Shown in pieces: positions 4,083-46,010 of a DNA stretch of 64,000 nt. The notes beneath the pieces were generated by a model, which searched no databases, had not been told where the DNA came from, and worked only from the letters and a program-made list of their open reading frames with translations. How positions within the stretch are numbered: position 1 is the stretch's first letter; each line of letters opens with the position of its first letter. This stretch comes from Ndongobacter massiliensis (GTDB lineage Bacteria > Bacillota > Clostridia > Tissierellales > Peptoniphilaceae). The DNA lies in assembly GCF_900120375.1 (NCBI RefSeq), contig NZ_LT635480.1, positions 744,001-808,000 on the forward strand, given 5' to 3'. A program made the translations under genes and the position numbers.

Positions 4083-4116
4083 AAAAAAACAAGAGCGGGG
4101 CACGCCAGCTCTTGTT
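4083..4116 (-). terminator. Leader terminator / attenuator upstream of rimP-nusA operon
   Basis: On the minus strand a 9-bp stem (AACAAGAGC/GCTCTTGTT) with an 11-nt loop runs straight into seven T residues. It lies downstream of the promoter at 4142-4170 and upstream of the rimP start at 4066, so it acts in the leader of the operon that encodes NusA. It could also stop read-through from polC. Confidence 0.85.
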
Positions 4117-4141
4117 CCATCCATCCTTACAAACTGTTATC

Positions 4142-4170
4142 AGTATAGCAGAAATACAACCGTTCTGCAA
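4142..4170 (-). promoter_or_regulatory. Sigma-A type promoter for rimP-nusA-ylxR-infB
   Basis: On the minus strand the -35 is TTGCAG (4165-4170), the spacer is 17 nt and the -10 is TATACT (4142-4147), preceded by TGC as in extended -10 promoters. Transcription should start near 4135, only about 20 nt before the leader terminator. Confidence 0.8.
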
Positions 4171-44116: not shown

Positions 44117-44593
44117 TTACTTTACCAATTCAAGAATTTTATACTCGACCATGCCACCCGGCGTCTCCACCGTAACCGTCGCACCTACCTTTGCACCGAT
44201 TAATGCTTTTCCCAACGGCGATTCATTCGAAATTTTTTGTTTCTTCGGATTGGCCTCAACTGTCCCCACAATGGTAAAGGTCATTTCCTCTTTATATTCC
44301 ACATCGAACACGCGGACGGTGGAACCAATTTTAACCGCATCCCCCGCACTTTCCCGGTCATCCTCGATGATCTTCGCGTTTTTCAGCTGCTGCTCAATGG
44401 AATAAATGCGTTCTTCCAACTGCGCCTGTTCTTCCTTTGCCGCGTCATACTCGGCATTTTCCGATAAATCGCCGAAGCCGCGTGCCACACGTATCTTTTC
44501 GGCAATATCTTGGCGTTTCGTAGCCTTGAGGTACTCCAGTTCCGCTTCTAACTTGTCATAGCCTTCCTGGGTCAGAAAAATTTCCTGCGTCAT
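44117..44593 (-). CDS. greA: Transcription elongation factor GreA
   Basis: GreA rescues backtracked RNA polymerase by stimulating transcript cleavage. The 158-residue protein has the N-terminal coiled coil with the acidic tip ARGFGDLSENAEYDAAKEEQ and the C-terminal FKBP-like domain (ISNESPLGKALIGAKVGATV). AAAAGGAGTAGAG precedes ATG 44593. It is co-transcribed with lysS from the promoter at 44690-44718, with a terminator hairpin in between. Confidence 0.97.
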   Translation of the reverse strand: MTQEIFLTQEGYDKLEAELEYLKATKRQDIAEKIRVARGFGDLSENAEYDAAKEEQAQLEERIYSIEQQLKNAKIIEDDRESAGDAVKIGSTVRVFDVEYKEEMTFTIVGTVEANPKKQKISNESPLGKALIGAKVGATVTVETPGGMVEYKILELVK

Positions 44594-44636
44594 CTCTACT
44601 CCTTTTCATGCCCGGGTTTTCCCGTTCCGCTTGTTA

Positions 44637-44668
44637 TAAAAAGCGGGCAGGCTTTCGCCTGCCGCGCT
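44637..44668 (-). terminator. Leader terminator / attenuator upstream of greA-lysS
   Basis: On the minus strand AGCG and GGCAGGC pair with GCCTGCC and CGCT around a GAAA tetraloop (one unpaired C), running into TTTTTAT. It lies between the promoter at 44690-44718 and the greA start at 44593, and also follows the CYTH stop. Confidence 0.85.
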
Positions 44669-44677
44669 AGAGGTCGC

Positions 44678-45277
44678 CTACTTCGCCCTATTATAAAAGT
44701 CCGGTGTGAGAAAGTCAACGCCGCGGCGTTCCAACTCCTGCAACTGCGCAATAGACAAGGTACTGACCGCCGTTTGCGGAATTTCCAAAAGCGCCAGGAT
44801 GGACTGCAAATGTGCCTTGGATTTTGCCTCAATCTCCATATAAGGCGTGGCCAGCGTCTGGGCATCCCAGGTGTCAAACTCAATGCGTGCCCCGGAAAGC
44901 AGATAGCGCCGCCGCTTCTTTTTGCCCATGGAAACGCGGTCATAGCCCAACAGGGACAACAGCTGCAGCGTCCGGGACACGTCGTCCACGTGCACCGTAA
45001 TTTCCTCGTTGACGCGCGCTCCATCTTCCGACAGTCGCTTTTTATACGTCAACTCCGCGGGTTGTTCCCGTCCGTCCACGCGCGTCTCCCGAATGCGGAG
45101 ATAATCCGATCCGGGAAGCGGATGTACGGACGATGCGATGTGGTAATTCGTCTGATGTTCCTCTTTGTCAAACCGGGCGCCCAGTGCGGTTAAGCGAGAT
45201 GCAAGCGACGCTTCTGAAAAGCCGAACACCTTGACTTCAATTTCCGTTTCCGGCAAAGGGCTTTGTTGCTCCGTCAA
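44678..45277 (-). CDS. CYTH domain protein (class IV adenylate cyclase / thiamine triphosphatase-like)
   Basis: The CYTH fold binds triphosphates inside a barrel. The signature E-x-E-x-K is seen as EIEVK (Glu12, Glu14, Lys16), followed by paired Arg/Lys strands (YLRIRETR, AELTYKKR, KKKRRRYLLSGARIEFDTWD) and the acidic YMEIEAKS. I propose TTG 45277 as start because GGAGG lies 9 nt upstream and the frame beyond overlaps nagB; this gives 199 residues. Substrate could be a triphosphate or ATP; not resolvable from sequence. The greA promoter lies within its last codons. Confidence 0.82.
   Translation of the reverse strand: MTEQQSPLPETEIEVKVFGFSEASLASRLTALGARFDKEEHQTNYHIASSVHPLPGSDYLRIRETRVDGREQPAELTYKKRLSEDGARVNEEITVHVDDVSRTLQLLSLLGYDRVSMGKKKRRRYLLSGARIEFDTWDAQTLATPYMEIEAKSKAHLQSILALLEIPQTAVSTLSIAQLQELERRGVDFLTPDFYNRAK
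44690..44718 (-). promoter_or_regulatory. Promoter for greA-lysS inside the CYTH gene end
   Basis: TTGACT (44713-44718) and TATAAT (44690-44695) on the minus strand are 17 nt apart. The predicted start near 44683 is about 15 nt before the leader terminator hairpin. Confidence 0.8.
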
Positions 45278-45278
45278 G

Positions 45279-46010
45279 TCAGCATTCCTCCAAAAGAGCC
45301 GCCGCTTCTTTGTCACAGAGCAAAATGGCATCCGGATGGCAACGCAGGAATCCCGCCGGGAAAGTCGTACGCACGCGCTTGCCGGTTACCAGCTCCAGGA
45401 CGGCGTCCTGTTTTGCTTTTCCGGTGGCCATGAGTACGACGCGCTTTGCGTTCAAAATCGTCCCCATGCCGCTGGTGACTGCCGTCTTGGGCACTTCCTC
45501 GGGATCGTCAAAAAAGCGTGCATTGGCTTCGATTGTTGACTCGGTCAACTTCACCAAACTCGTATCCACACTCAGCGTTTCATCCGGCTCGTTAAAGGCG
45601 ATGTGCCCGTTGCGACCGATGCCTAACAATTGCAGATCAATGCCACCCGCCTTGGCAATCTCTTTCTCATAGGCGCCGGGGACAAAATCTTCTTCCCGAT
45701 CGGCAAAGGGGAAATGTGTCGCTTCCTTTTTAATATTGATCTTCGAAAAGAGATTTTCATTCATAAAATAGCGGTAACTTTGCGGATTATCTTTGGAAAG
45801 CCCGACGTATTCATCGAGGTTAAAACTCGTAACCTCGGAGAAATCCAAACCCTTGTCGCAGGCCTTCGCCAACTCTGCGTATAGACCCAGAGGAGTCGAA
45901 CCGGTTGCAAGTCCCAATACAATTTTTGGATTCTTGCGAATGGCATCAATAAAAATCTCTGCCGCTGCCTTGCTGACTTCCTGTTCATTTTCCAAAATGC
46001 GAATTTCCAT
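45279..46010 (-). CDS. nagB: Glucosamine-6-phosphate deaminase
   Basis: NagB converts glucosamine-6-phosphate to fructose-6-phosphate and ammonia. The 243 residues include VLGLATGSTPLGLYAEL, the catalytic FNLDEYVGL, and GIGRNGHIAFNEPDETL. AATAGGAGAATACA precedes ATG 46010. It is followed by the CYTH gene after 1 nt. nagA is not present nearby, so this may serve amino-sugar recycling together with genes elsewhere. Confidence 0.95.
   Translation of the reverse strand: MEIRILENEQEVSKAAAEIFIDAIRKNPKIVLGLATGSTPLGLYAELAKACDKGLDFSEVTSFNLDEYVGLSKDNPQSYRYFMNENLFSKINIKKEATHFPFADREEDFVPGAYEKEIAKAGGIDLQLLGIGRNGHIAFNEPDETLSVDTSLVKLTESTIEANARFFDDPEEVPKTAVTSGMGTILNAKRVVLMATGKAKQDAVLELVTGKRVRTTFPAGFLRCHPDAILLCDKEAAALLEEC

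Follow-up and report, generated by a model that had tools for sequence, protein, structure and literature searches.

We propose that the greA-lysS operon of Ndongobacter massiliensis is controlled by a start-proximal transcription attenuator, a reading to which we assign a probability of about 0.8 and in which termination in vivo is what we infer from the arrangement of sequence elements. The window analyzed here, a stretch of 64,000 nucleotides from a single-contig genome of 1.86 Mb, encodes on its minus strand, in this order, a PF00149 phosphoesterase, a nagB-like protein (PF01182), a CYTH-domain protein (PF01928), GreA and LysS. The elements on which the proposal rests, and the genes around them, are as follows.

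44678..45331, minus strand: CYTH-domain gene (PF01928) upstream of greA, the final codons of which contain the greA promoter
44690..44718, minus strand: greA promoter, TTGACT (44718-44713), a 17-nt spacer and TATAAT (44695-44690), within the 3' end of the CYTH gene
44684 (+/- 1-2 nt), minus strand: predicted greA transcription start, placed by inference 6 nt downstream of the -10 element
44638..44668, minus strand: predicted intrinsic terminator, an 11-bp stem with a GAAA loop (44668-44642) and a U-tract to 44638, at about +17 to +47
44594..44637, minus strand: remaining leader, with a small CGGG-AAAA-CCCG hairpin and the Shine-Dalgarno sequence AAGGAG (44604-44599)
44117..44593, minus strand: greA, 158 aa, PF03449 and PF01272
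42197..44104, minus strand: lysS, 635 aa, with a C-terminal tRNA-binding domain, starting 12 nt after greA

The greA-lysS gene order is conserved in 24/24 family genera examined, and relatives of GreA in the wider genome collection are found mainly in Clostridia. The catalytic-tip motif of the window GreA, GDLSENAEY at residue 41, is intact. The tRNA-binding domain of LysS is PF01588 (residues 537-632), a domain that is commoner on MetRS, and the window LysS aligns across almost its full length with that of one near relative (G023).

The greA promoter matches the consensus at 11 of 12 positions. As the sequence-only reading had noticed, it lies in the last codons of the CYTH gene, the reading frame of which spans it and the stop codon of which ends at 44678. 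The pattern TTGAC-N17..19-TATAAT occurs at 21 sites genome-wide, compared with 4 for a reversed control pattern, and relatives possess a greA promoter at the equivalent place relative to greA, mostly with a 12/12 match to the consensus. The GAAA-capped terminator reported by the same reading, shortly past the predicted start and before greA, was likewise found to be well defined. Its stem, AGCG(C)GGCAGGC-GAAA-GCCTGCCCGCT with one bulged C, is followed by TTTTATAA; it begins approximately 16 nt after the predicted start at 44684, and the terminated RNA is predicted to be approximately 47 nt long. The score of the leader terminator was matched by 0/200 dinucleotide shuffles, and RNA folding of the entire leader gave z = -2.6.

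The hairpin is positioned 9 nt past the CYTH stop and 48 nt before greA. An alternative explanation is that it simply terminates the CYTH operon at its 3' end and that the TTGACT-TATAAT sequence is incidental, or that greA transcription starts downstream of the hairpin, which is the outcome that the sequence-only reading had named as its own refutation. The closeness of the hairpin to the CYTH stop would fit with this explanation, as would the fact that no other terminator separates CYTH from the greA promoter in the window, and under Naville and Gautheret's 1:1 distance filter (PMC2965389) the window site would count as a 3' terminator. We nonetheless regard it as improbable. A simple promoter scan between the hairpin and greA found no promoter-like site. 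Equivalent near-perfect greA promoters are present throughout the order, and in 30/40 of its genera (L002-L121) the promoter is the perfect TTGACA-17-TATAAT (12/12). The terminator follows the promoter irrespective of which gene lies upstream, and in two genera it does so in addition to a separate terminator of the upstream gene.

The statements about relatives derive from comparing the regions upstream of greA in 24 genera of the family, including that of the window, and in 16 genera that belong to other families of the order. A near-consensus greA promoter is present in 21/24 family genera, 15 of which have leaders 35 nt or longer. A terminator lies between the promoter and greA in 14 of those 15 leaders, with 1.2 expected from shuffles; the family cases cluster in a few clades, and the counts are consequently not independent. 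The remaining 10/24 genera comprise six with leaders shorter than 35 nt, three without a promoter and one with a leader that lacks a terminator. With the same detector and the same threshold, which is arbitrary and identical for cases and controls, terminators were found after 14/87 other strong promoters, drawn from the window genome and from eight relatives (Fisher p = 9e-9 for the comparison with 14/15), a background that is generous because at least three of those are tRNA genes. Terminators were found with this detector in 10/59 greA leaders from other Clostridia (Fisher p = 5e-8 for the corresponding comparison).

In the 14 family cases the stem starts between 0 and 42 nt past the predicted start, mostly at less than 21 nt. 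The distance from the terminator to the greA ATG has a median of 27 nt (sd 14) in the family, and the distance from the upstream stop codon to the terminator has a median of 58 (sd 38). Two genera (G022 and G004) possess the upstream gene's own terminator before the promoter as well as the leader terminator, and 88 nt separate the CYTH stop from the hairpin in a near relative that likewise has CYTH upstream (G023). Six family genera have a promoter but a leader shorter than 35 nt, and a terminator between the upstream gene and that promoter is present in just one of them (G015), indicating that a terminator for the upstream gene is not obligatory, which also argues against the hairpin being present merely to end the CYTH transcript. 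RNAalifold found no consensus structure for the greA leader; the terminator arms are not alignable and their sequence turns over. The comparison as a whole favors interpreting the window hairpin as part of the greA leader that here also closes the CYTH operon, and disfavors a plain CYTH terminator with a greA start beyond it.

In the attenuator model, RNA polymerase would initiate at the strong predicted sigma-A promoter and would soon encounter the intrinsic terminator. A large share of transcripts would end as RNAs of approximately 47 nt, and the remainder would read through into greA-lysS. In the window genome, the hairpin would additionally stop transcription coming from the CYTH operon. 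Only approximately 16 nt precede the stem, which leaves no room for a T-box, a riboswitch or a long antiterminator, and control through the early polymerase is therefore probable; read-through would probably be determined by the behavior of the polymerase within the first 50 nt. No Rfam match to a T-box or riboswitch, for lysS or otherwise, was obtained in the leader, and a T-box for lysS was rejected on both grounds. A classical antiterminator was rejected as well: besides the short distance before the stem, the CCGCTT/AAGCGG pairing would be possible only once polymerase is beyond the U-tract.

The leader terminator might be real and yet unregulated: read-through would be constant, and a very strong promoter combined with a partial terminator would do no more than set a fixed level of greA-lysS expression and block read-through from upstream. 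This unregulated insulator is a serious possibility, for which we would give somewhat less than even odds. It would account for the lack of a conserved sequence or antiterminator, strong promoters would compensate for the transcripts lost, and a comparable layout is found ahead of several housekeeping genes. It sits less easily with E. coli GraL, which has the same geometry and responds to GreA (PMC6829880), and with the recurrence of the layout in separate clades, which suggests selection. A more specific form of the attenuator explanation is GraL-like negative feedback by GreA at the leader, which we put forward tentatively. GreA autoregulation in E. coli works through the GraL leader, in cis. 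It depends on catalytically active GreA as well as on GraL sequence, points to an additional factor, and was not recapitulated in vitro (PMC6829880). The geometry of the window leader is nearly that of GraL, and the intact catalytic tip of the window GreA is consistent with the dependence of the E. coli feedback on active enzyme. Against such feedback, the window leader has no sequence relation to RF01769, and the E. coli feedback requires GraL-specific sequence and the additional factor. By analogy with E. coli, GreA would plausibly lower its own read-through. Most related genera that possess a leader at greA share the layout, so that the leader probably acts to adjust how much of the polymerase-rescue factor GreA is made, as an already known E. 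coli leader does.

The sequence-only reading had described greA-lysS as having the same leader as the nusA operon, and had suggested a common feedback scheme for the two polymerase-binding elongation factors NusA and GreA. The other leader is also in the window.

4089..4170, minus strand: rimP-nusA leader, TTGCAG (4170), a 17-nt spacer and TATACT (4147), with a stem at 4115-4089 and then a T run

The likeness holds for the layout, a promoter and then a terminator, and does not extend to the sequence. The rimP promoter is TTGCAG-17-TATACT, and the rimP terminator, ACAAGAGC...GCTCTTGT-U7, is approximately 20 nt past the predicted start. Across the sample, rimP promoters are clearly weaker than greA promoters. 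The rimP arm motif AGAGYGG..CCRCTCT is found by strict pattern in 31/40 rimP leaders, with near variants in most of the others, and in 0/40 greA leaders, so that a motif common to the two kinds of leader was rejected. The rimP arms AGAGTGGG..CCCACTCT are conserved across the order (L124-L184), and some close relatives of the window have CAAGAGCGG..CCGCTCTTG in their place. The sole match to the Rfam rimP model was the E. coli control.

Shared feedback by NusA and GreA on both operons, acting through a common leader signal, is in consequence highly improbable. It draws on the presence in both leaders of a terminator approximately 20 nt past the start and on B. subtilis, where NusA represses its own leader by attenuation (reviewed in PMC12288461). 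Set against this are the confinement of the rimP arm motif to rimP leaders and the finding that overproduced NusA, NusB, NusE or NusG left greA fusions and read-through essentially unchanged in E. coli (PMC6829880). Terminators close to the start are also found after strong promoters of genes identified by eye as alaS (L203, L238) and ylxM (L215) in relatives and as ctsR (L158). The occurrence of the layout before these genes indicates that it is not restricted to polymerase-binding factors, and a scheme common to such factors is not supported. The ctsR-like site (G000:C1:400996) is in the own genome, outside the window, and consists of a near-consensus promoter, then immediately the hairpin AAAAGTGACCTCAATGAGGTCACTTTTTT and after it the ctsR-like gene; similar sites are present in two relatives (L221 and L224).

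The perfection of the greA promoter extends beyond the order. The 12/12 sequence is present at greA in 48/80 loci of other, mostly Clostridial, genomes (L032-L111). Elsewhere in the same loci, there are 2 perfect sites in 954 kb of strand-sequence, and each of eight family genomes contains between 4 and 17 perfect sites. The perfect greA consensus across relatives supports the promoter as real. A narrow search of the literature found no statement of a perfect-consensus greA promoter. The sequence at the start site is group-specific, being CATAT in the other families of the order (L008-L025) and GATTGTGAAAG-like in many Lachnospiraceae (L032-L111). Sigma-dependent promoter-proximal pauses that are relieved by Gre factors have a published signature (PMC7876045), which we scored as a start of the form YR+1Y located 6-7 nt downstream of a canonical -10. 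The signature is present in 14/16 cases from the order's other families and in only 2/21 within the family of the window, and the predicted start bases of the window do not fit the motif; the pause signature was accordingly rejected for this family.

A broader evolutionary scenario is conceivable, although we consider it rather unlikely. Start-proximal autoregulation of greA would have arisen independently in E. coli GraL and in at least two clades here, and in Clostridia it would be coupled to a perfect-consensus, probably escape-limited promoter. If this were true, a factor that acts in promoter escape and in the rescue of backtracked polymerase would have its own gene governed by the very step on which it acts, with neither an aptamer nor an antiterminator. 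The GraL-type layout is not peculiar to enterobacteria, as it recurs in a Clostridial family with a different sequence. Unrelated leaders that share one geometry make the manner in which GreA lowers its own expression testable by comparison, and the perfect-consensus greA promoter across Clostridia provides a second, independent handle.

Among the closest known counterparts of the window leader is E. coli GraL (RF01769), which the sequence-only reading had mentioned and which the geometry supports as a comparison. Both consist of a promoter, a stem approximately 15-19 nt past the start, a short terminated RNA (predicted in the window) and greA. In an identical pipeline, GraL scored 28.6 at +14 and the window leader 30.5 at +16, and the window has the two features by which we recognized a GraL-like leader, a promoter directly upstream and a stem no more than approximately 20 nt from the start. 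The window differs from GraL in being a Clostridial genome, in its greA-lysS operon, in having the promoter within the upstream gene, in that no second sigma-E promoter was seen at greA, and in the absence of a match to the Rfam model: RF01769 gave no match in the window at the gathering score or at E<=10, and none in the greA loci of 11 relatives, whereas the E. coli control scored 127.5 bits.

The rimP leader (RF01770 and the Firmicute form) resembles the window greA leader in having a promoter and then a terminator within approximately 20 nt, a layout present in the window and almost all relatives, and differs in its conserved arms. In the rimP-nusA leader of S. agalactiae, termination was mapped 31 nt past the start (PMC4448216). 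This is a different gene and was mapped experimentally, whereas the start and termination in the window are predicted; the mapped end nevertheless indicates that terminators so close to the start can work in Gram-positives. Naville and Gautheret (PMC2965389) catalogued predicted leader terminators in 2010, with rimP first and greA/rnk seventh and with bacilli and Clostridia included, and beyond that prediction our reading of the literature turned up no account of a greA leader RNA in Clostridia. Their greA/rnk attenuators, from bacilli, Clostridia and Proteobacteria, share with the window a predicted leader terminator upstream of greA. Clear antiterminators were reported in their clusters, whereas the window stem is too near the start for one, and their distance filter would have dropped the window site. 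The window leader is a further member of the kind of attenuator catalogued in that study, and is not new in principle.
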